A DNA stretch of 21,769 nt from a virus, in IMG/VR virus record IMGVR_UViG_3300022074_000423, positions 1 to 21,769 of that record; one strand, written 5' to 3'. The notes beneath the pieces are model-generated. The model had not been told where the DNA came from and made no database searches. It worked only from the letters and a program-made list of their open reading frames with translations. Shown here one piece after another: positions 271 through 21,560 of this stretch. The position numbers and the translations under genes are program-made. Positions within the stretch are counted from its first letter, which is position 1; each line of letters begins with the position of its first letter.

Positions 271-1734
271 TTAGCCCTTTACTAATATTTCGGTTGCTGA
301 AACTGCTGTGCCTGCGGTCACGGATGGCGAGGCCGCTGTTGTACCTATTGTACCGTCCGTTTGCACAAAATAGGTTTGCCCTGCGGTCAAGCTGGTCTGT
401 TTGTCGTTAACTGAGCCGCCTAGCTGAATGGTCGCTAGGCCGTTGTCGGTGCAGTTATTCTCCGCAAAGCCAATAAAGTTTTCTGAGGTAAGGTTCGGGG
501 CGCTATACCCTGTCTGAAATACAACAGCCGTGCCATAATCGGAGTTAGCATCATCCTCATAAGCTATGACAACTTTCTCAGCGTTAGAGTCATAAACAGC
601 CGCAATATACAAAGTAGAGGCGGCTTCAAATACAGTGGCACTATTAAAACTAATAGACGTACCGCTAACCGCGCCAGCGATAGCTGTGCCATAGTTTGAG
701 TTACCGCCATCACGATACGCGATAACTACTTTTTGAGCAGTAGAATCATAGGTGGCTGAAGTTTCACTGGTAGTTCCGCTTTCAAACACAACAGCCGTAC
801 CAAAGCTAATATCTGTACCGCTAACTGTGCCTACAATGGCTGTTCCTTGCGCGGAATTAGGGTTATCTTGATAGGCAATAACTACTTTTTGAGCATCTGA
901 ATCGTAGGCGGCGGAAATCTCCCATGAGTAGGCAGACTCAAAAACAGCGGCAGTGCCGTAGCTAATAGACGTTCCACTTACCGTTCCTACAATAGCAGTT
1001 CCGTAATTAGAATTACCACCGTCTTTATAAGCAATAACAACTTTTTGGGCATTAGAATCATAGGCAATTGCAATCGTTCCATCTTCAGTGGATGCACTTT
1101 CAAATGTTGCAGTAGGCCCAAAGCTAATAGAAGTCCCACTAACCGTCCCGACAATTGCTTTACCGTGATTGGAATCTTCAGTGTCTCTATAAGCAACAAC
1201 AACTTTCTGTGCGTTGGCATCATAAACGATTGCAGTATCTGCGGTAATTCCAGATTCAAACGCTGTTGCACTGCCAAAGCTAATAGAAGTCCCACTTACG
1301 GTTCCAACAATGCACGTTCCTTTTTGGGAGTTGTTAAAATCGTTATAAGAAATAACAACTTTTTGAGCGTTAGAGTCGTAGGTAATTGAAATATGTAGCG
1401 TTGATGCGCTTTCAAAAACCACTGGAGTACCAAAGCTAATGGAATCACCGCTTACCGTTCCTACAACGGCTGTTCCATAGCTACTGTTACCATCGTCTGT
1501 GTAAACAATAACAACCTTCTGCGCGTTAGAATCATAAGCCGCCGCAACATAACGAACAGCCGCACTTTCAAACAAGGCGGCAGTACCCGCAGACTGTGAA
1601 ACAGGGATTTCCGCAACCTGTGCTACATCGCCGTCTGCCTCGACAATGCACGGCTTGCCAGCAGTGATCGCACCCTCTGCTGTTAGCTGAACCGTGCTGG
1701 CTGGTGCATTTAGCTGTCTGCCTAGATAAGTCAT
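271..1734 (-). CDS. Seven-bladed beta-propeller-like tail/receptor-binding protein, 487 aa
   Basis: The protein has three parts. Residues 1-57 form an N-terminal cap containing ITAGKPCIVEADGDVAQV. Residues about 59-408 hold seven tandem repeats whose [YF]D anchors fall at residues 67, 119, 171, 225, 277, 329 and 381, a near-perfect 52-residue period. Residues about 413-487 form a C-terminal domain (NLTSENFIGF..., GQTYFVQTDGTIGTT). Each repeat reads as four short beta strands, for example KVVIAY, GTAIVGTV and SISFG. The last repeat lacks its outer strand while the cap ends in a matching ALFESA strand, as in propeller 'Velcro' closure. The fold and the tail-fibre or receptor-binding role are inferred from repeat count, position and the tail-type C-terminal domain. 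It starts 1 base after the upstream gene's stop. Confidence 0.85.
   Translation of the reverse strand: MTYLGRQLNAPASTVQLTAEGAITAGKPCIVEADGDVAQVAEIPVSQSAGTAALFESAAVRYVAAAYDSNAQKVVIVYTDDGNSSYGTAVVGTVSGDSISFGTPVVFESASTLHISITYDSNAQKVVISYNDFNNSQKGTCIVGTVSGTSISFGSATAFESGITADTAIVYDANAQKVVVAYRDTEDSNHGKAIVGTVSGTSISFGPTATFESASTEDGTIAIAYDSNAQKVVIAYKDGGNSNYGTAIVGTVSGTSISYGTAAVFESAYSWEISAAYDSDAQKVVIAYQDNPNSAQGTAIVGTVSGTDISFGTAVVFESGTTSETSATYDSTAQKVVIAYRDGGNSNYGTAIAGAVSGTSISFNSATVFEAASTLYIAAVYDSNAEKVVIAYEDDANSDYGTAVVFQTGYSAPNLTSENFIGFAENNCTDNGLATIQLGGSVNDKQTSLTAGQTYFVQTDGTIGTTAASPSVTAGTAVSATEILVKG
511..1560 (-). repeat. Seven tandem 156-bp coding repeats (propeller blades) in the 487-aa gene
   Basis: Seven in-frame repeats of 52 codons (one of 54). 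Some stretches are nearly identical at DNA level: 1118-1140 and 1274-1296 share 23 identical bases exactly 156 bp apart, in adjacent blades. The sequence at the start of each blade, just before the YD anchor, differs between copies, while the GTAIVGTVSGTSISFG part is nearly constant. Confidence 0.9.
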
Positions 1735-1735
1735 A

Positions 1736-3232
1736 TCAGCCCTTCACTATCAGCTTAGTGGATGTAACAGCCGTGCCAGCGGTGACGCTGGGGCTATCCG
1801 CTGACGTACCTATCGTGCCGTCTGTTTGGACAAAATAAGTTTGGCCGGGTGTCAGGCTAGACTGATCTGGGCTGACGCCGCCCTTGATTAGCACGGTGGC
1901 TGTTTCTGTGTCAGCCGCCGCGTACTCTGCAATGCCTATATAATTTTCGGAAGTGAGATTGGTCACATTAAATGCCACTGGACGCATAATGTTTGCAACG
2001 CCGTACTGTTCACTAGTACCATGAACTGAACTTTTTTCTCTTTGATACGCCACTAAAGAAAAATTCAAGTTGGTGTCAAAGTCGGCACTTACGTCTTGGA
2101 CATAGCCAAGGTTGTGAAAGGCTACCCTAGAAGTAATTGACCCAAGATAAGGTGAACTCGTGCCGGTAACTGTTCCCTGTACAACGTAACCCTTCCCGCT
2201 GTCTGCACTGTCTGCGAAAAAGATATTCATTTTATTTGTGGCGCTATTGAAGCAGATATCTATACTCCTTGTTCGGGATACTTGGCCGGTCTCAAAATCA
2301 ACTGACCCTCCAGCAAAACTTACGGATGTGCCACTAATCGTTCCTATGGTGACAGCCCCATTTTGGCCCCCACTGTTTTGTGCGTAAATAACAGCAAATC
2401 TGCCTGCGCTTGGATCAAAGGCCGTACCTGTGCGAACGCTACGCATATCGCCGCTATAGAAAACGGTAGCACTGCCAAAGCTGATACTTGTCGAACTGAC
2501 AGTGCCAACAACCGCCGTTCCATAAAAAGAGTTGCTGTTATCGCAATATGCAATAAGAACCTTCCCATTTGTGCTGTCATGCTCGCAACTGATGACTGTG
2601 GTTTCGCCTGCCTCAAACTGAGCTACTGAGCCAAAACTCACACTCGTACCTGAGATAGTTGCTACAACAGCCTTGCCTTTAGAACTGTCTGCGTTGTCTT
2701 GGTAAGCAATGACTACTTTGTTGTTAGTTGAGTCGAAACAGGAGTCAATGTGTTCTGAGGATGCAGACTCAAAGGTAGCCGCGCTACCAAAGCTGATAGC
2801 CGAGCCACTTACGCTTCCAACGATTGCCTTGCCTTCTGAGCCGTTAGTGTAAGAAATTAACGTCTTGTCGGCGTTGCTATCGTAGGTACAGGCAATCCAA
2901 TTGGTGCTTGTAGAGTTAAAAACTACGGGAGTGCCATAGCTTCTCGTCCCATCAGAGCTTGGAGTGCATACTATTGCAGTGCCATAAGATGAGTTGCCGC
3001 CGTCTGAGTATGCAATAACAAACTTGTTTGCCGTGCTATCGAAAACAGTCCTGATGTAAGAGGTTTGCGCTGACTCAAAAACAGATTCTGTTCCTGTTAT
3101 GGTCGAAAATGTGGTCTCTGAGATTTGCGCCACATCACCATCAGCCTCAACAATCAAAGGCTTTCCTGCGGTAATTGAGCCGCTGGCCTTAGCCTTAAAC
3201 CTTCTTGGTAAGCTGTCTCCTATAATTTTCAT
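1736..3232 (-). CDS. Seven-bladed beta-propeller-like tail protein, diverged paralogue, 498 aa
   Basis: A paralogue of the neighbouring 487-aa protein with the same architecture. It has an N-terminal cap (ITAGKPLIVEADGDVAQI), seven repeats with anchors near residues 64, 117, 166, 218, 272, 328 and 384, and a C-terminal domain (NLTSENYIGIAEY..., GQTYFVQTDGTIGTS) close to its neighbours'. The repeats are more diverged than in the other two genes: anchors include HD and FN, and periods range from 49 to 56. Blades 5-7 keep little of the consensus. This suggests an older or faster-evolving copy. Its ATG overlaps the stop of the 853-aa gene by 4 bases (ATGA), so the three are co-translated. The fold and a tail-fibre or host-recognition role are inferred. 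Confidence 0.83.
   Translation of the reverse strand: MKIIGDSLPRRFKAKASGSITAGKPLIVEADGDVAQISETTFSTITGTESVFESAQTSYIRTVFDSTANKFVIAYSDGGNSSYGTAIVCTPSSDGTRSYGTPVVFNSTSTNWIACTYDSNADKTLISYTNGSEGKAIVGSVSGSAISFGSAATFESASSEHIDSCFDSTNNKVVIAYQDNADSSKGKAVVATISGTSVSFGSVAQFEAGETTVISCEHDSTNGKVLIAYCDNSNSFYGTAVVGTVSSTSISFGSATVFYSGDMRSVRTGTAFDPSAGRFAVIYAQNSGGQNGAVTIGTISGTSVSFAGGSVDFETGQVSRTRSIDICFNSATNKMNIFFADSADSGKGYVVQGTVTGTSSPYLGSITSRVAFHNLGYVQDVSADFDTNLNFSLVAYQREKSSVHGTSEQYGVANIMRPVAFNVTNLTSENYIGIAEYAAADTETATVLIKGGVSPDQSSLTPGQTYFVQTDGTIGTSADSPSVTAGTAVTSTKLIVKG
1973..3064 (-). repeat. Seven diverged blade repeats in the 498-aa gene
   Basis: Seven degenerate repeats of about 49-56 codons encode the propeller-like region. 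Consensus elements such as GTAVVGTV, SISFG and a KVVIAY-type strand are clear in blades 1-4 and weak in blades 5-7. Confidence 0.8.
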
Positions 3233-5790
3233 TCTTTGACCACCAATTCCGTGGCTGATATAGCCGTGCCAGCCACAACAGAAGGAGTTGCCGCTGTCAG
3301 GGCTAATGTGCCGTCTTTTTGCACAAAGTATTGCTGGCCTGCTGTCAGGCTGGTCTGGTTACGGTCTATGCAACCTACCACTGCTATGGTGGCATCTTGC
3401 CCATCCGTGTAGGCTTGATCCGTTATGCCTATGTAGTTTTCTGTTGTAAGGTTTGTGATACTGCTTGCCGCTTGGAAAACGACACTTTTGCCTTTATTGG
3501 AGTCACCCTCGTCTTCATAGAATATGACTGTTCTTTCTGCATTGGCGTCATACGCAATGCCGTATTCGTCAGTCGCACTGTTTTCAATCACCAATGCGGT
3601 GTCAAACGAAATAGAAGTGCCGCTTACCGTTCCGGTTATGACAGTTCCATAATTAGAGTTATCAGTATCTTCATACCCTATGACAATCTTACCTGCACTC
3701 GCATCATAAGCGGTTGCTGTTGTGTTTATGCCTGCCGCCTCAAAAACCACGGCAGTGCCAAAAGTAATATCCGTACCGCTGACTGTACCGACTATTGCAG
3801 TGCCGTAGTCTGAATTTGAGGTGTCTTTATACGCAATGACCACCTTTCCAGCACTGCTATCGTAAGCCGCAGATATACGGATTGTTGTGGCGCTTTCAAA
3901 CTGAGCCTGAGTGCCGAAGCTAATACCCGTTCCAGAAACAGTTCCCACCTTAGCGACTCCGGGCTTGCCTGATCCTTGAGCATAAACAACCACAGTTTTG
4001 TTGTTACCAGAATCATAAACGGCATCTGGAGTGCCATAATCACTGTCTGTTGCAATTGATGTTTCTGACCCAAAACTGATGGAGGTGCCTGATACAGTGC
4101 CGACGATAGAATTTAAAGTGCCGCTATTTTGATAAACACAGACAATTTTCTGTGCAGTAGAGTCATAAGCGGCGTGGCAGTCTCTTGTTGTCGCGCTTTT
4201 GAATACAACAGGCGACCCGAAACTTATTCCTGTACCCGAGACGGTGCCGACGATTGCAGTGCCGTGTTGACTGTTAGTAAAATCTGTATAGAAAATGACA
4301 ATCTTGCCAGCGTTGACATCATATACTGTGCTACATTCTAAGGTAGTTGCACTTTCAAATACTACGGGAGTGCCATAACTTATTGAGTTATCGCTACTGT
4401 CAACTGTTCCAACTGCCGCAGTGCCGTATGAGCTATTGGGTACATCTCTGTAAGCCACTACTATTTTTTGATTAACAGAATCATACGCCGCGCCAAAACT
4501 AATATTTTGACTGTTTTCTATTGCAACTGGTGTTCCAGCGGCTTGCGACACGGCAGTTGCTGAGACTTGCTTTACCTTGCCGCCTACATCATTGATCGCA
4601 ACAACAGCCTTGCCATGATCGCTATCGGTTTGATCGTTGTATGCGATAACAATTCTTTCTGCAACAGAGTCATAAACGGGTGCAAGGTAAATACCCGCGC
4701 CAGTGTTACCAGAAAAAATTATGGCTTCGTCTGATCTGATTAAGTCAGCACCAGAAACAGTCAGATACGCAAAAGTCGCATTGCCATCTGCACGATCTTT
4801 ATACGCTAAACCCATTTTATTTGCCGCAGAGTCATACGCCAAAGCAATTGAGCTTGTTGCACCGCTTGTGCCAGAATTAAACGTCAGAAGATTGCCCGTA
4901 ATGTTTATTGAGGTTCCGCTTACCTCTGCGGAGACAGCCTTACCTTGATAGCCATCACCCCCGTCAGCGAAGGCAATAATCACTTTGTTTGCACTGCTAT
5001 CAAACGCTATTGCAATGTAGTAAGTGCCGCCATTTTCGTAAACATTCGCTGAACCAAAGCTGATTGATGTCCCGCTCACGGTTCCTACGATAGCCGTACC
5101 TTTGTCTGAGTCACCGCCATCTTTGTAGGAAAGAACCACTTTGTTGTTTGAGCTATCAAACGTAGCCGCAATATAAGTAGACTGTGCGCTTTCAAACACC
5201 ACAGGGCTACCAAAGCTGATTGATGTCCCAGAAACAGTGCCAATCACGGCGTTGCCATAACTGGATGAACCGGGGTAACAGATAACTACTTTGTTTTCAT
5301 TGCTGTCGAAAGTAATCGCCGCATCAACAATGCCGTATGAAACAAACACAACAGCAGAGCCAAAGCTGATTGACGTTCCTGATACAGTGCCGACAATAGC
5401 TGTTCCGTAGTTTGAATTGCCTCCGTCTTTGTAGGCAATAACAACTTTGTTGTTGCTAGTGTCGAACGTGCATCGTATGTGTTCGACTGAGGCTGACTCA
5501 AAAACTACGGGAGTGCCGAAAGAGACGGTGTTGCCAGAAACAGTGCCGACCACCGCCGTTCCATAGTCAGAGTTACCGTTGTCCTGATAAGTGAAAACGA
5601 CTTTATTGTTGGAACTGTCAAAGGTTCCCCAATAGTAATAAGTGCCAGCGGCCTCAAACTCTACGGGACTGCTCAAGGTAGGCGCACCGGGAGCGGTCAC
5701 GATCACAGGCTTGCCTGCCGCTATAGAACCATCTGCTGTCGCAGTGTAGAAAGCGTCGAGTATGTTGGGGTCGTTACCAATAAAGCGCAT
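3229..5790 (-). CDS. Tandem double seven-bladed beta-propeller tail protein, 853 aa
   Basis: The largest of three paralogous repeat proteins. It has an N-terminal cap (SIAAGKPVIV, residues 22-31), then fourteen repeats. Anchors lie at residues 57, 109, 161, 211, 263, 319 and 373, then at 436, 490, 542, 592, 643, 695 and 747. The 63-residue step between repeats 7 and 8 is longer than any other. It holds VKQVSATAVSQAAGT, which matches the N-terminal cap of the 487-aa protein (VAQVAEIPVSQSAGT). The protein therefore looks like two complete seven-bladed propellers joined by a duplicated cap, followed by one shared C-terminal domain (NLTTENYIGI..., GQQYFVQKDGTLALT). A tail-fibre or adhesin role is inferred. 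TAG of the upstream gene lies 9 bases before its ATG, with AGG as a plausible ribosome site. Confidence 0.85.
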   Translation of the reverse strand: MRFIGNDPNILDAFYTATADGSIAAGKPVIVTAPGAPTLSSPVEFEAAGTYYYWGTFDSSNNKVVFTYQDNGNSDYGTAVVGTVSGNTVSFGTPVVFESASVEHIRCTFDTSNNKVVIAYKDGGNSNYGTAIVGTVSGTSISFGSAVVFVSYGIVDAAITFDSNENKVVICYPGSSSYGNAVIGTVSGTSISFGSPVVFESAQSTYIAATFDSSNNKVVLSYKDGGDSDKGTAIVGTVSGTSISFGSANVYENGGTYYIAIAFDSSANKVIIAFADGGDGYQGKAVSAEVSGTSINITGNLLTFNSGTSGATSSIALAYDSAANKMGLAYKDRADGNATFAYLTVSGADLIRSDEAIIFSGNTGAGIYLAPVYDSVAERIVIAYNDQTDSDHGKAVVAINDVGGKVKQVSATAVSQAAGTPVAIENSQNISFGAAYDSVNQKIVVAYRDVPNSSYGTAAVGTVDSSDNSISYGTPVVFESATTLECSTVYDVNAGKIVIFYTDFTNSQHGTAIVGTVSGTGISFGSPVVFKSATTRDCHAAYDSTAQKIVCVYQNSGTLNSIVGTVSGTSISFGSETSIATDSDYGTPDAVYDSGNNKTVVVYAQGSGKPGVAKVGTVSGTGISFGTQAQFESATTIRISAAYDSSAGKVVIAYKDTSNSDYGTAIVGTVSGTDITFGTAVVFEAAGINTTATAYDASAGKIVIGYEDTDNSNYGTVITGTVSGTSISFDTALVIENSATDEYGIAYDANAERTVIFYEDEGDSNKGKSVVFQAASSITNLTTENYIGITDQAYTDGQDATIAVVGCIDRNQTSLTAGQQYFVQKDGTLALTAATPSVVAGTAISATELVVKE
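3466..4515 (-). repeat. Second seven-repeat propeller module of the 853-aa gene (blades 8-14)
   Basis: Seven repeats of about 51-54 codons encode residues 426-775. They end without an outer strand (KGKSVVFQAAS), just as the 487-aa protein's last blade does (YGTAVVFQTG). This supports an independently closed propeller. Confidence 0.82.
4585..5646 (-). repeat. First seven-repeat propeller module of the 853-aa gene (blades 1-7)
   Basis: Seven repeats of about 50-56 codons encode residues 49-402. Blade 7 ends in HGKAVVAIND without the SISFG outer strand, again the pattern of a closing blade. Blade 3 is shortened in its loop (CYPGSSSYG), and blades 5 and 6 are the most diverged. Confidence 0.82.
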
Positions 5791-6184: not shown

Positions 6185-6847
6185 CTATCCAAATACAATA
6201 GCCATAGCGATGGCTTTGCCCGTGTTAATTCCTGCGGCTCCAAATGACAACTTGCCAGAGCCATCTGTCAGTAACGCCTGCCCACTTGTTCCGTCTCCGT
6301 TAGGAAGCTCTAAGCTATAGGTGGCACTAGCAGAGTGAGGTGGCCCCTTTAGGGTTACACCGTGACTGTTTGACTCGCAATTAAACCTGATCGCACCAGC
6401 GTTCGTATTGCCGTAAAGCTCAGTAAAGCCAGTGCCATTCGGAAATAACTGTATGTTGCCGTTGCTGTTTGTGGACTTAATAGCGTTGGTGTCAATCTGG
6501 AGGTTCTCAATCGACACCACGCCATCTGCGTCTTCAAGTACTGACTTGTCAGCAGGATATGTCAGGATGACATCTTTAGTTCCTGCGGAGAAGTTGACCG
6601 CACTGTTGCTATTAGAACTCGACAGCACCGCTGTACGGGTTATCGTGTTACCGCTAGTAGCATAAGTGCCAAGACCAACCTCAAAGGCGAGGTTGTTGTT
6701 GTCAATGATCGCGTAATAAGTTGTATCCGCATTAGACAGAACAGAAGCAAAAGTACGGAAGTTAGGCTCCGCACCACCAAGAGAAACTGCCCCGGTGCCT
6801 GTTGTGGTGGTGGTTTCTTTTACGCGATCCGCTACGACCAAGGCCAT
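6185..6847 (-). CDS. Tail fibre-like structural protein, 220 aa
   Basis: The N-terminal half (MALVVADRVKETTTTTGTG to about residue 105) is a domain I recall at the start of many marine phage tail proteins: YYAIID, FEVGLGTYATSGNTITRT and DVILTYPADKSV. The middle has short repeated strand-like segments (SIENLQIDTNAIKSTNSNG). Near the C-terminus, YSLELPNGDGTSGQALLTDGSGKLSFG is of the type common near the ends of phage tail fibres, before the last domain. The end (NTGKAIAMAIVFG) is hydrophobic. It likely forms a trimeric fibre or fibre adaptor on the tail. Its ATG starts 2 bases after the upstream TAG. The fibre role is inferred from these motifs. Confidence 0.78.
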   Translation of the reverse strand: MALVVADRVKETTTTTGTGAVSLGGAEPNFRTFASVLSNADTTYYAIIDNNNLAFEVGLGTYATSGNTITRTAVLSSSNSNSAVNFSAGTKDVILTYPADKSVLEDADGVVSIENLQIDTNAIKSTNSNGNIQLFPNGTGFTELYGNTNAGAIRFNCESNSHGVTLKGPPHSASATYSLELPNGDGTSGQALLTDGSGKLSFGAAGINTGKAIAMAIVFG

Positions 6848-7294: not shown

Positions 7295-7585
7295 TCACAT
7301 TCTCCTGATTAGTTCGGCTAAGTCTTTTTGCCCTGCGTCCAGAAGGGCGTTATACACTGTAGTTCGGTCGCTATTTGCGGCCTCTTTCATGTAGAAAACA
7401 AGAACCGCTCTGATGTGATCCTTGAAAGCCTGCGCCTGTGCCTGTACCTCTGGCAACGCAGTATCAGCTACAGAGATGATCTTATCTAAGCATCTCTCAG
7501 CGATCTCGTCTGGGGAAAACCCCCTGTTCTGTGTTGTGTGTACATTAACGCTACCCACCTCAAAACCACCGCTAACGCCAATCAT
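7295..7585 (-). CDS. Conserved phage protein of unknown function, 96 aa
   Basis: An N-terminal beta segment (VNVHTT) is followed by a helical protein containing RGFSPDEIAERCLDKIISV, an Ala/Gln-rich helix (PEVQAQAQAFKDHIRAVLVF) and a final NALLDAGQKDLAELIRRM. I recall the same pattern (HTT-NRGF-PEEIAER..., SDRTTVYNAL-DAG...LAELIRR) in small proteins near tail-adaptor genes of marine phages. It overlaps the upstream adaptor gene by 4 bases (ATGA), implying coupled translation. It may be a connector or tail-assembly factor, inferred from position. The start codon could lie a few codons downstream, because the first ten residues look less constrained. Confidence 0.74.
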   Translation of the reverse strand: MIGVSGGFEVGSVNVHTTQNRGFSPDEIAERCLDKIISVADTALPEVQAQAQAFKDHIRAVLVFYMKEAANSDRTTVYNALLDAGQKDLAELIRRM

Positions 7586-8223
7586 GCTCTGACTTTCCTT
7601 ACTTCACCTGACCTGTAGCTGTCTGTCGTGCTGTAGCCTTCGCCCAACTGCTCCAGATTAGCCAGCGCCTCCATGTACCTTTGGCTGTACATCTGCATCA
7701 GATCAGGGTCGCCCTTTAGATAGGTGTACGCCTCGACAAGACAGCCATACAAAAGCGTGGACTCTGCGTTGGTGCCGAGCCAGCTTGTGCCATCTCCAGA
7801 TGCGGTGATTGAGGTGGGTTTGTGGAAGTAGTGCAGTTCTGCGTCATAGGCAGAATCAGGGGTGGGGCCGAGAATAAACGCGGTGCGGCTGAAGATGCCG
7901 TAGTACTTGGGCGCTCCCTGCGTTGTTGTTAGCGGGTACGCCTGACGTATAAAGTTTACGTCCTTGAACATCAGATACTCAAAGCCAGAGTTGTCGATGG
8001 CTAGTGAGTAGGGTGTCAAAAAATCCGTGGGCATGATGAGGTACTGGTTGCCGCTCGCCACAGACCCAGACACATTCTTGCGAAAATCAGGCAACTGGAT
8101 AGCTTTGAGAATCTTGTCCTCTGCCTGCGTAATGATTGTTGTCAAATTACTGACGAATGTTGTCTCGTTTGACTCTGTATAGTCCTGTATGGCCTGCTTT
8201 AAAGTCGTAAGGGTAAACGCCAT
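7582..8223 (-). CDS. Head-tail adaptor protein (SU10-type/tail tubular A-like), 213 aa
   Basis: Recognised by a helical N-terminus (ITQAEDKILKAIQLPDFR), a beta core (LIMPTDFLTPYSLAI, FEYLMFKDVNFIRQAYP, APKYYGIFSRTAFILGPTP, ELHYFHKP) and a C-terminal helical part (LLYGCLVEAYTYLKGDPDL followed by an amphipathic helix). This matches phage adaptor proteins such as that of podovirus SU10, which bind below the portal and carry the tail nozzle or fibres. The family call rests on recalled pattern, not a search. The ATG shares one base with the stop of the 114-aa gene (TGATG). The length of about 210 aa fits the family. The nozzle protein that usually follows is not found downstream in the window. Confidence 0.75.
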   Translation of the reverse strand: MAFTLTTLKQAIQDYTESNETTFVSNLTTIITQAEDKILKAIQLPDFRKNVSGSVASGNQYLIMPTDFLTPYSLAIDNSGFEYLMFKDVNFIRQAYPLTTTQGAPKYYGIFSRTAFILGPTPDSAYDAELHYFHKPTSITASGDGTSWLGTNAESTLLYGCLVEAYTYLKGDPDLMQMYSQRYMEALANLEQLGEGYSTTDSYRSGEVRKVRA

Positions 8224-8567
8224 CAGGATGTCTCCACGGTTACTCGACCAACAGCACCTGTCATATCAAGGCCGACAGTGCGGCTTCCAAGCGCCGTGTT
8301 GCCTCCCCCGACAGGATCGAACGCAGATAGCGCACGACTCTCATCAATACTGCCATCAGGTCGCGGAAAGCGTAGCGCCTGCGGGTCGCTTGCATTGACA
8401 TCCCCCAGCTTCAACTGCGGCTGATCTTGATCTACAACGTCTCTGCCGACTAGCAGTCCGTTCCAGCGACCGTCCTCAATCTGCCTGACCAGATCACGCA
8501 ACGGGTATCGAAACCCTGTCCGGTCACAAAAGCCAAATGCTTTCGATCCTTTTGCGTAACTGCTCAT
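8223..8567 (-). CDS. Conserved virion-associated protein, 114 aa
   Basis: The N-terminus reads YAKGSKAFGFCDRTGFRYPL, then LVRQIEDGRWNGLLVGRDVVD and DPQALRFPRPD, then a flexible Gly/Ser/Asp-rich C-terminus. The FCDRTGFRYPL...G--VGRD-VD pattern is one I recall from small proteins encoded beside connector genes of many podoviruses and siphoviruses. The single Cys in FCDRTGFRYP and the basic/aromatic mix hint at a small folded domain, but two further Cys/His residues for a zinc site are absent. It overlaps the gp4-like gene by 4 bases (ATGA). It is probably a minor structural or connector protein; function unknown. Confidence 0.76.
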   Translation of the reverse strand: MSSYAKGSKAFGFCDRTGFRYPLRDLVRQIEDGRWNGLLVGRDVVDQDQPQLKLGDVNASDPQALRFPRPDGSIDESRALSAFDPVGGGNTALGSRTVGLDMTGAVGRVTVETS

Positions 8568-9259
8568 AAGTTGTTATATCCACCGGGAGCCATATACAAC
8601 GATGCTTTTTCTCTGGAAGCGTCTGCCGCTAGATTCCACTGCTCCTCGTACACCTCTCTGAGTGCGGGTGCCAAAGGTATCGACTCAGGTTTCTTGCTCG
8701 CTATGTAATAGGCCAGACCAGCCACCATGCACGGCAGATACCGCGCTGGCACATCCATGTTGTTGGATGCTGGCTTTCCGGTGTCCTCTATTCTGTCTAG
8801 GTAGTAATACGCAAACGTATAGGTCGTTGTTGCGTCTGGCACGGGCCAGAAGTGCAACGTCAGTCCTGTCGGCTTGCGCTCAACGTAGTACTGTAGCGGT
8901 CTGCCTTGTGTCAGCTTGTTGGTCTGGTGGGCATACTGGCTCACCGAGATTCTCTGCATGGTCAGGTCAGACTGCTTGGAAGTGTCGCCTGCGTCAGTCC
9001 GCAACAGTCCCTCTATGATGTCTTGCTTCTCAGAGGTCAAATCGTATGACGAGGTGCCTGCGGCCAGAGTCTGCGTGGCATCTCTTACTGTCCACAAGTT
9101 AAGACCACGGTTCTGCCACTCCAGCATCAACAAATCCAGACTGCGCCGTGCTGTCCGGTAGTCGTAGCCGCTTCGTAGCTCAGAGCCTGCCCGCTCAAAC
9201 GCCTCCTCAAATATATCTGACAAGTCAAGAGTAAAGGCTGTCGTTCCGCTAGTCGCCAT
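8564..9259 (-). CDS. Head completion/head-tail adaptor, P22 gp4-like, 231 aa
   Basis: The helical start (LDLSDIFEEAFERAGSELR) is followed by YDYRTARRSLDLLMLEWQNR and GLNLWTV, a pattern typical of P22 gp4-like adaptors that bind the portal after DNA packaging and extend the channel. Further on come a beta part (GRPLQYYVERKPTGLTLHFW) and a helical end (ARYLPCMVAGLAYYIASKKP, VYEEQWNLAADASREKASLY). P22 gp4 is 166 aa, so this one is longer. A P22-like portal upstream supports the assignment. The ATG shares one base with the upstream stop (TGATG). The family call is from pattern memory. Confidence 0.76.
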   Translation of the reverse strand: MATSGTTAFTLDLSDIFEEAFERAGSELRSGYDYRTARRSLDLLMLEWQNRGLNLWTVRDATQTLAAGTSSYDLTSEKQDIIEGLLRTDAGDTSKQSDLTMQRISVSQYAHQTNKLTQGRPLQYYVERKPTGLTLHFWPVPDATTTYTFAYYYLDRIEDTGKPASNNMDVPARYLPCMVAGLAYYIASKKPESIPLAPALREVYEEQWNLAADASREKASLYMAPGGYNNL

Positions 9260-17208: not shown

Positions 17209-17517
17209 CTAGCCTTTGCCACCCTTGGTGTTCATCTTGTTCTTCATAGCCGTGCCGCCGTATCTCATCCCCGGCATCTTTTTCTTGGCACCGCCTGCCA
17301 TGCCGCCTTTGCTCATGGTTCTGCCGCCTTTAAAGTAGCCCTTGGTCTTGGGGAGCATTGCTTGGCCTCCACCGGCCTTGCCTTCACCGTCAACCGTGAA
17401 AAAGGGCACCTGCCTTCCGGTGTCTGGGTCTTTCACCATCTTCAGCTTGTCGCCTTTGCCACCTGACGACATGCCCATTCGCATTTTGCCGCCCCTAGGG
17501 TTCATCTTGTTTTTCAT
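17209..17517 (-). CDS. Lys/Gly/Met-rich small protein, 102 aa
   Basis: A low-complexity basic protein: MKNKMNPRGGKMRMGMSSGG, a central less biased part (VKDPDTGRQVPFFTVDGEGK), then YFKGGRTMSKGGMAGGAKKK, MPGMRYGG and a final MKNKMNTKGGKG. The same six residues MKNKMN occur at both ends. I chose ATG at 17517, with AGGTG 6 bases upstream, over GTG at 17526. It still overlaps the upstream gene by 23 bases. Small Gly/Lys/Met-rich proteins of this kind are common in marine phages as I recall, with unknown role. The portal GTG abuts its stop, implying coupled translation. Confidence 0.7.
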   Translation of the reverse strand: MKNKMNPRGGKMRMGMSSGGKGDKLKMVKDPDTGRQVPFFTVDGEGKAGGGQAMLPKTKGYFKGGRTMSKGGMAGGAKKKMPGMRYGGTAMKNKMNTKGGKG

Positions 17518-18193
17518 CGTCCTCACCTGCGTATAAGTTGTCGAATACTCTGTTTACGTCCAGCGTATAATCCAAGTCCGACTTGGAGTAGTGAATGTGC
17601 TGTGACGGCCTAAAGTCCGGTGCGCCCTCTCCCGTTGACCACCATGCTGGGTGTGTCACCCGTACACGGTTGTTGGGTAGCGCCACAATGTTGCCTGTCC
17701 ACGGGCCTGCATCCAGAAGCTCCATCACATGACTCTGTTTGTGCTGGGCAGGGTCATCTGCGATCTCGTTATCTGTGTAGTCCACCGTAAACATATACTT
17801 TGCAGGGTAAAACTCCCCGTCTATCTTGGCGATCCAAGGGCACGGCGTTGCCCTATCAAGGACATAAACGCTGTGCTCCCTAGATGAACAGTCCCACGGC
17901 TGGGCCGCGTAGACCGGCATCGGCTCGGGCCACTCCTCAAAAGGGGTGTCTCCGACCAAAGCAGTGATGGGCATCCTTGCCCACATCGCGCCTCCGTGGA
18001 TGTTTGGCTCGTCGTTGTCATAGGTTTCAGCGCCAGTGAATATGATCTGGAAGCTGAGACACCGACAAGGCATCGTTGTAACCGCAATCGCCATAGCGTG
18101 TAAAAACTCGCCGTGGTATTTGCTGTGGTTGTGCGTGTATTCGCGTCTTACCCAGCACTTGAAGTGTGGGATGTTGCTTTGCAGAAAGGCCAT
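17495..18193 (-). CDS. Conserved phage protein of unknown function, 232 aa
   Basis: It starts MAFLQSNIPHFKCWVRREYT then HNHSKYHGEFLHAMAIAVTT and is rich in His, Trp, Cys and Tyr. Other parts are HGGAMWARMPITALVGDTP, PWDCSSREHSVYVLDRATPC, KIDGEFYPAKYMFTVDYTDN and RVRVTHPAWWSTGEGAPDFR. I recall similar proteins encoded by marine phages between terminase and portal, but know no function. The mixed alpha/beta character and conserved-looking His/Cys pattern suggest a globular domain, perhaps metal-binding. The start is 6 bases after the TerL stop with GAGG upstream. An enzyme role cannot be assigned. Confidence 0.8.
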   Translation of the reverse strand: MAFLQSNIPHFKCWVRREYTHNHSKYHGEFLHAMAIAVTTMPCRCLSFQIIFTGAETYDNDEPNIHGGAMWARMPITALVGDTPFEEWPEPMPVYAAQPWDCSSREHSVYVLDRATPCPWIAKIDGEFYPAKYMFTVDYTDNEIADDPAQHKQSHVMELLDAGPWTGNIVALPNNRVRVTHPAWWSTGEGAPDFRPSQHIHYSKSDLDYTLDVNRVFDNLYAGEDDEKQDEP

Positions 18194-19960: not shown

Positions 19961-21373
19961 TTAGTAGCCGAACCCGCCTCCAAAACCGCCTTTGCCGCCT
20001 CCCATTGGTCGCATCCTTCCGCCTTTGCCGCCACCAAACCTAGGACGCTGATATCCGCCATAAGGGCCAAAGCCCGTGGAGTATCCAGACATCAAACCAC
20101 GGTTAGGCATATATTGTTGAGACATCTGCGGCGGTTGGTATATTGTTGGTTGCATCATGGGTTGCATGAAATTCATCATACCCATTGGCTGTGTCATGCC
20201 ATACGGCAGTCCAGAGTAAAGCTGATTGCCGGTGATGTATTGGCCGGGAATCCTGCCGCCCTTTCCGGGGAACCCTCCTCCGGGGAATCCGGGCGGCATA
20301 GGTGGCATCCCGCCGCCTCCCGGTGGAGGTGGTGCATCGCCTCCGGGGGGTGGAGGAGGCATTCCGGTGTCTGGCTGATACTGGCTTGTATCAGCACCAT
20401 ATGCGATGTTGGCGTAGGTGCCATCGTCCTGTAGGAATGGGGTGCCTGATCGGTCTATGCCCAGAGAATCTAGGTACGCCTGATAGTCGTTACTCTGACC
20501 TCCGCCATCGCCACGCCTGTACGCAGACTGAACGAGCCTGCCTCTAAGCTGTTCCGGTGTCAGGTTTCCTGCGTCAAGCTGGCTTCTGTACTGACCAAAG
20601 CCGCCTTCAAGTTGGCCTGTCTCTGGGTTGAATCTTCCCCTTGCAGGTCTTCTGCCAAACAACGCCTGTGTCGCGTCAAATACGGGGCCACCTGACTGAG
20701 AGGCATCGTAGTAAGACCTGTCAGTGCCTTGAGCGCCAGCGATGATGGCATCTCTTAAAGTGGCATCTGTCAGGTCGCCTGACCCTAAGCGTCCTGCAAA
20801 GTAATCAAGCCCCGGTTGTTGCGCCTGACGATTGAACAATTCTTGGTAATACTGTTGTATCAGGGGGTTAAAGTTGCCCTGCTGTCCGGTTGTGCCGCCA
20901 GCATCAACAGTGGCGTCTCCTGTTGGAAGAACGCCGGGATTGTCCAAGCTCGCGGCAAGACCATATGTGTCGTAATTCTGGCCTTCTGCGGATTCGTTGA
21001 CCGCCTGACGTATATCGGCAAGACTCATGCCTGAGTCAACCCAGCCCTGAATGAAGTTGTCTGCGCCGCCCCTGCCTAGCTCGTCCTGATATATCTGCTG
21101 TACATCAGCCGCTGTAACTGCTTGCGTCTGGGTTGAGCCTGTATCTGCACCGGCTGTGGTTTCAGACGGCGTGTCCATTGTCACTGCCGCCCTTGCTGGG
21201 TTTACCTCTCCAGTTTCTGCATACGCAATCCCCTCTTGAGAGCCAGCTATTTGAGCATCAAGCTCTTCCAGAGTCAGGTCTTGACTTGCCCAAAATATAA
21301 GGTTTTCGGGCTTGGGTAGTCCACCAAGACGCTGTTGAAAGATTTTAACTACGTCTGCGGCTGAGTTAGCCAT
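19961..21373 (-). CDS. DUF4214-like repeat protein with Pro/Gly-rich tail, 470 aa
   Basis: The first gene behind the promoter. ATG 21373 has GGAG 7 bases upstream; ATG 21379 is too close to it. The N-terminal half has three or four helical repeats of about 50-60 aa, for example VQQIYQDELGRGGADNFIQG, IQQYYQELFNRQAQQPGLDY and FAGRLGSGDLTDATLRDAII, of the DUF4214 type (Y--LF-R---PGL-YF---L-SG). Then come PPPPPGGDAPPPPGGGG, a Met/Gly/Pro/Tyr stretch and a final RGG/GGK-rich end (GGGKGGRMRPMGGGKGGFGG). I know no function for such a phage protein; a scaffold or virion-surface role is possible. Its low-complexity tail resembles phase-separating RGG proteins in composition only. Confidence 0.8.
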   Translation of the reverse strand: MANSAADVVKIFQQRLGGLPKPENLIFWASQDLTLEELDAQIAGSQEGIAYAETGEVNPARAAVTMDTPSETTAGADTGSTQTQAVTAADVQQIYQDELGRGGADNFIQGWVDSGMSLADIRQAVNESAEGQNYDTYGLAASLDNPGVLPTGDATVDAGGTTGQQGNFNPLIQQYYQELFNRQAQQPGLDYFAGRLGSGDLTDATLRDAIIAGAQGTDRSYYDASQSGGPVFDATQALFGRRPARGRFNPETGQLEGGFGQYRSQLDAGNLTPEQLRGRLVQSAYRRGDGGGQSNDYQAYLDSLGIDRSGTPFLQDDGTYANIAYGADTSQYQPDTGMPPPPPGGDAPPPPGGGGMPPMPPGFPGGGFPGKGGRIPGQYITGNQLYSGLPYGMTQPMGMMNFMQPMMQPTIYQPPQMSQQYMPNRGLMSGYSTGFGPYGGYQRPRFGGGKGGRMRPMGGGKGGFGGGFGY

Positions 21374-21560
21374 AAACATTCTCCGCTATGGGCGCAAAAA
21401 GGGGTTTCCCACTAGGAATATCCCAAGCATAGGAAAGCAACAGCACTAAAACCGTCCTATAAAACAAAAATTAGGAATTTACTGAGAGAAGTCCGTCCTA
21501 GAACGCTTGATTACTCAGAACTGGGACATTCCTAGGTAGATTTACCCCCGGATTGTAGAG

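Follow-up and report, generated by a model that had tools for sequence, protein, structure and literature searches.

Probable propeller adhesins of a short-tailed aquatic phage: closed seven-bladed rings exchanged between split holder domains

Three adjacent genes in a 21,769-nucleotide stretch of viral DNA (the single linear IMG/VR record IMGVR_UViG_3300022074_000423, hereafter the window) encode proteins built from exactly 7, 7 and 14 repeats of about 52 amino acids (aa). It is highly probable that these proteins are swappable, receptor-gripping propeller adhesins of the outer tail fibres, with split holder domains, whole-ring exchange and one-faced variation. The argument draws on the numbers of repeats, the fold, the sites of insertion, ring exchange, variability concentrated on one face and the fusion of relatives to fibre shafts, each of which was observed computationally. 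The open reading frames (ORFs) all lie on the minus strand, at 3229-5790 (853 aa, two propellers, the first of the row), 1736-3232 (498 aa, one propeller, the second) and 271-1734 (487 aa, one propeller, the third). The row is tightly packed, with a single base between positions 1734 and 1736 and a 4-nucleotide stop/start overlap (ATGA) at 3229-3232.

Self-comparison of each protein with a BLOSUM matrix peaked at a lag of 52 aa, and the peaks of 1.53 (487-aa protein), 0.02 (498-aa) and 0.69 (853-aa) exceeded the maxima of 100 shuffles each (-0.01, -0.22 and -0.35, respectively). Periodic anchors, spaced 49-63 aa apart, numbered 7, 7 and 14, and a blade hidden Markov model (HMM), which is independent of the anchors, again gave 7, 7 and 14. 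An earlier sequence-only reading of this DNA had proposed these counts and named repeat detection as their check; both counts agree with it, and only its '[YF]D' anchor was slightly too strict, the anchors of the 498-aa protein including one HD and one FN. Strands follow the order A-B-C-D within a blade, with a lone strand D before blade 1 and none after the final strand C. In the 487- and 498-aa proteins, a weak half-blade HMM match (model positions 31-50, corresponding to the fourth strand) precedes blade 1, and the last blade stops at HMM position 29-34. In the 487-aa protein, the orphan strand D was located at residues 53-58 ('LFESA') and strand C of the last blade at 400-407, where the blade ends. 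Both halves of the 853-aa protein display the same orphan-strand and truncated-blade pattern by eye, including at the mid-protein junction. That the final repeat lacks its outer strand while a FESA-type strand stands orphaned at the N-terminus, as had been noticed from the letters, was found again with both the blade HMM and the structural model.

AlphaFold2 modelling of the 487-aa protein, using a 28-sequence alignment, gave a predicted local distance difference test score (pLDDT) of 93.7 and a predicted template modelling score (pTM) of 0.88. The best PDB matches of this model were the seven-bladed Photorhabdus lectins PLL2/PHL/PLL5, with template modelling scores of 0.77-0.79 (normalised to the lectin) and alignments that span the full lectin length; bacterial sialidases and glycoside hydrolases were also among the structural matches. 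The propeller comprises residues ~53-408 in the 487-aa protein (511-1578) and ~48-418 in the 498-aa protein (1979-3091), whose blades are the most diverged of the row. In the 853-aa protein, the two rings occupy residues ~42-402 (4585-5667) and ~420-778 (3457-4533), and its model contained two regions of about pLDDT 90 with two-propeller proteins such as Elp2 as best matches. Each module thus has seven four-stranded blades, and the orphan strand D, the last blade without strand D and the whole-ring matches indicate that a strand contributed by the opposite terminus closes the ring; closure was judged from this strand pattern and these matches. Searches of PDB with single sequences and with profiles returned nothing meaningful for the whole proteins or the holder. 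No established propeller family (WD40, Kelch, BNR/sialidase, NHL, FG-GAP and others) reached its Pfam cut-off for the seven-bladed type, and the window propellers had only weak PHROG matches, none with a function. PF18050 (Cyclophil_like2) passed its cut-off only because weak matches to single ~35-aa repeats added up, and was judged spurious.

Seven blades proved to be a property of the family and not a coincidence of one genome. Two scans of viral contigs yielded 100 loci, and in the second scan at least 511 stretches encoded relatives, which makes the family abundant in viral contigs. Blades were counted per module, with exceptions inspected by eye, in 157 complete ORFs. An automatic total-blade count with gap interpolation was discarded in favour of this module-wise count, since it produced false 8s and 15s: the holder can pass for a weak blade, and inter-module holder segments resemble a missing blade. 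Exactly seven blades were present in 155 modules; 11 ORFs in which the blades are strongly diverged or unevenly spaced were left out of the exact sevens, and the ORF of locus L014 is broken. Five of the 157 ORFs carry 14 blades without a large gap, which may still represent two rings if the strand D after blade 7 serves the second ring. Locus L107 (5430-12482) encodes a distantly related phage fibre protein of 2350 aa, in which the holder-plus-propeller module occurs four times in succession, giving 4 x 7 blades. The ORFs of the relatives are not mutually independent, and hence no probability was attached to the counts of seven. Blades of one gene share up to 77 identical nucleotides, so that slippage would be expected to be favoured, yet the blade number is fixed. 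These data suggest a strong natural constraint on blade number in spite of near-identical repeats.

The propeller is inserted between a conserved N-terminal part of ~40 aa and a conserved C-terminal part of ~73 aa, which we read as one split domain, the holder. The N-terminal cap described earlier does contain the N-terminal ~40 aa, but the C-terminal ~73 aa belong to it as well. In the 487-aa protein the two parts of the holder correspond to residues 1-52 (1579-1734; residues 1-10 are disordered in the model) and ~412-487 (274-501). The C-terminal part in the 853-aa protein covers residues ~781-853 (3232-3450), and a leftover of the N-terminal part, residues 403-419 (GGKVKQVSATAVSQAAG; 4534-4584), separates its two rings. 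Among relatives, propellers occupy about five different places in the holder: the standard site before 'ENYIGI', a site directly after 'ENYIGM' (L005, L054 and L101), one after 'GKPVIVTA' (the first ring of the 853-aa protein), one before 'LTxGQQYFVQ' (L007 and L009) and one after 'YYVQGDGSI' (L020).

The holder also accepts a second type of propeller. A different repeat (GIAFNxDGTKMFVVG...), unrelated to the seven-bladed family, was present in five proteins (L020:3659-5893, L068:4464-6728, L071:1617-3869, L067:5409-7769 and L026:3273-4484), and each of these was counted as five blades: it opens with a strand-D half-blade and continues with four complete blades and a truncated one. In L020, L068 and L071, this five-bladed propeller lies within the same holder alongside seven blades of the first type, the site in L071 being the one before 'LTxGQQYFVQ'. 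Blade number is therefore family-specific, five in one and seven in the other, and the closing pattern is common to both. The copy in L026, from Lentibacter phage ICBM2, matches the SGL/Lactonase propeller profiles of Pfam.

Whole rings have been exchanged between conserved holders. At the second gene position, holders are 78-97% identical between contigs (84-97% to the window), whereas propellers are 39-45% identical, which is paralogue-level divergence, with one exception of 79% (window versus L003). The first ring of the 853-aa protein is 94% identical to that of L001 and 51% to that of L010; the second ring is 93% identical to that of L010 and 68% to that of L001. The nucleotide identity of the gene changes over at the boundary between the rings, near residue 400, the inter-propeller leftover marking the switch point, and the 14-blade gene of the window is a mosaic joined at a propeller boundary. 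L004 lacks propeller 1. The split holder, the multiple insertion sites, the exchange of propellers and the five-bladed type had all escaped the sequence-only reading.

Amino-acid change is concentrated on one face of the ring. Across 1386 blades, the variable model positions were 2-5, at the start of strand A, and 19, 21 and 25-26, around the B-C loop. In 62 close pairs, changed versus silent codons were 0.24 versus 0.11 in the D-A loop and start of strand A and 0.20 versus 0.15 in the B-C loop, as compared with 0.07 versus 0.16 in the A-B loop, 0.06 versus 0.26 in the C-D loop and 0.06 versus 0.20 in the strands. Amino-acid changes outnumber silent ones only in the D-A region and the B-C loop; elsewhere, silent changes are two- to four-fold higher. 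In propellers generally, one face carries the D-A and B-C loops and the other the A-B and C-D loops. Invariant residues were found mainly in the holder and the blade framework. Taken with ring exchange, this one-faced variability makes the variable face the likely binding site of a surface receptor, probably a glycan.

A tail location, as first proposed, gained support from relatives fused to tail-fibre shafts. In L079, L031 and L089, the propeller module terminates long proteins whose shafts match PHROG tail-fibre families (4.6e-33, 4.7e-27 and 8.6e-14, respectively). Directly upstream of the propeller genes, the window encodes a 220-aa fibre protein (6185-6847, minus strand). Propellers are fused to a ~90-aa part of it (82-86% identical) in L060, L030 and L047, and to its N-terminal part in L073 and L040. 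The propeller protein of L107 lies just downstream of a Phage-tail_3/fn3 protein in a context that resembles a tailed phage; the archaeal label of L107 (a metagenome-assembled genome binned as Euryarchaeota) was not used as host evidence because the tail cluster is phage-like. The nearest named phage records are Lentibacter phage ICBM2 gp49, which sits among tail-fibre genes, and Marine virus AG-345-O18 (25-27% identical over 95-98% of the query). The terminase and portal of the window have their closest counterparts in Pelagibacter phage HTVC027P and its kin, the records of which gave no propeller match. A scan of bacterial and archaeal genomes returned nothing beyond short contigs, weak matches and a single contig that is clearly phage-like. 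Evidence for a fibre adhesin thus comes from fusion in relatives and, in the window itself, from neighbourhood, and the three separate proteins would sit on the fibres of the window phage.

Several points weigh against this interpretation. The model of the 853-aa protein is weak for the holder and for how the rings are placed relative to each other (pTM 0.51), and the codon-change figures are simple tallies over related pairs, with no formal selection test. Six blades were counted in two relatives, L073 (4495-6198) and L081 (7944-9245), each exactly 52 aa (one blade) shorter than its close seven-blade sister (L040 and L038, respectively). These may reflect a real change or an assembly collapse, the latter being possible because identical stretches of up to 54-77 nucleotides recur among their blades. 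The window propeller genes have no shaft of their own, and the holder weakly resembles the capsid cement proteins Phage_cement_2 (in 8 of 17 holder members, best E 0.0012), Phage_cement and XM1_gp53_minor_capsid. A cement-like holder may leave a head location open, with the propellers decorating the capsid as head-borne adhesins; we consider this unlikely. The same holder-plus-propeller arrangement ends tail-fibre proteins in L031, L079 and L089, the propellers of L107 follow a Phage-tail_3 protein, and those of the window come after adaptor and fibre genes. All cement matches were below Pfam cut-offs (for PF09956 and PF22758, 11.7-17.3 bits against cut-offs of 24-27), and the holder profile search against PDB gave no cement protein. 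We thus treat the resemblance as a lead and not as membership.

Catalytic propellers, sialidase- or depolymerase-like and cutting host surface glycans, might be expected given that sialidases and glycoside hydrolases appear among the structural matches and that phage depolymerases and tailspikes are common. However, structural scores were highest for lectins and scattered across many unrelated propellers, no sialidase or hydrolase family was matched in the Pfam search, and the conservation of holder and framework together with two highly variable top-face loops is the reverse of an active site, so that an enzymatic role is decidedly improbable. Podovirus tail nozzle or tube proteins (T7 gp12, the SU10 nozzle and the crAss muzzle) also contain propellers, which have seven blades in both SU10 and crAss and, in SU10, Velcro closure (PMC9509320, PMC10172136), and the window phage has SU10-type adaptors. 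A conserved channel protein would nevertheless not be expected to occur as three paralogues of one or two rings each, to exchange rapidly or to be fused to fibre shafts, and the blades are contiguous at 49-63 aa spacing, without the platform/nozzle insertion between blades 2 and 3 (PMC9509320); we give this identity very little credence. Regular 52-aa beta repeats are by themselves no proof of a ring, but an open or linear fold, for instance a beta-solenoid, with coincidental sevens, is hardly believable when the high-confidence model matches closed rings, the count is fixed at seven in relatives and recurs in the four modules of L107, strand D and the truncated last blade form a recurrent pattern, and the unrelated inserted family shows that same pattern with a constant five blades. 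The confident model thus upheld the original proposal of closed seven-bladed propellers over a solenoid.

For tail-fibre adhesins, the following mechanism can be proposed. In a short-tailed aquatic phage, the three proteins would make up the outer portion of the tail fibres, where contact with the host is made. Each would be a small split holder from which one or two closed seven-bladed propellers project. Closure would be of the 1+3 Velcro type, in which the N-terminal strand D completes a last blade that has strands A-C only. Because both ends of the ring then lie in the same blade, a whole propeller could enter, leave or swap between holder loops while the holder stays intact, and ring closure would keep the blade number exact. 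Fibres may present one to several propellers, whose variable face would grip a host surface component. Receptor specificity would be varied by swapping whole propellers between conserved holders, and point changes in the loops of one ring face, D-A and B-C, would tune it as well. A broader idea, in which our belief and doubt are evenly matched, is a plug-in receptor system: one acceptor domain, possibly cement-derived, takes at least two unrelated closed propeller families in about five loops, recombination at ring boundaries changes host range, and selection for closure fixes the blade number.

The same structural gene cluster of the window encodes an SU10-type adaptor protein at 7582-8223 (minus strand) and a second one at 8564-9259. 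Elsewhere in the window, ORF 17495-18193, between the terminase and portal genes, has a PHROG match annotated as ferredoxin (E 1.7e-27), and ORF 19961-21379, adjoining the terminase gene, encodes a 472-aa protein with a Pro/Gly-rich C-terminal half.

Propellers are known in phage receptor-binding proteins, namely phi11 Gp45, PhiKZ gp131C and PRD1 P2 (PMC4901313), and repetitive, freshly amplified propellers have already been described (PMC9218822, PMC6805158). Gp45 of Staphylococcus phage phi11 (PMC4901313) likewise has a propeller platform in a fibre-like receptor-binding protein, an N-terminal strand that closes the last blade and a ligand thought to bind one face; unlike the window family, it has five blades, a coiled-coil stem and no tandem rings. 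In PMC4901313, Pseudomonas phage PhiKZ gp131C (PDB 4GBF) is likewise seven-bladed, C-terminal in a peripheral baseplate protein and suggested to be receptor-binding, and is not presented as an exchanged cassette. The window family had no sequence match to the phi11 Gp45 PDB chains or to PhiKZ gp131C. Propellers of the tail tube, in the SU10 nozzle (seven-bladed, with Velcro closure), T7 gp12 and crAss gp44 (PMC9509320, PMC6702177, PMC10172136), differ in that they line the DNA channel, have domains inserted between blades and are not variable adhesins. The Photorhabdus PLL/PHL seven-bladed lectins, the closest solved folds, are sugar-binding propellers; they are bacterial, lack a holder and show only 10-12% identity, a likeness at the fold level. 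Fourteen blades in one chain have a precedent in the crystallised Nostoc protein WRAP (PDB 2YMU; PMC6805158), with near-identical blades, but WRAP belongs to the WD40 family, is not from a phage and has no holder. ICBM2 gp49 is annotated only as 'hypothetical' and the AG-345-O18 record is unannotated, the blades of both being strongly diverged, and ICBM2 gp51 carries the five-bladed type. The family is absent from Pfam and PDB, its relatives occur in only two distinct named phages, and no description of it or of its exchange system was found in the open-access literature searched. Ring-shaped phage adhesins as such are known, and what appears to be new is a large family whose rings slot into a conserved holder and are exchanged within it. 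As holder and recognition part are cleanly separated in this natural series of adhesins, the face and the propeller that decide specificity can be tested directly.
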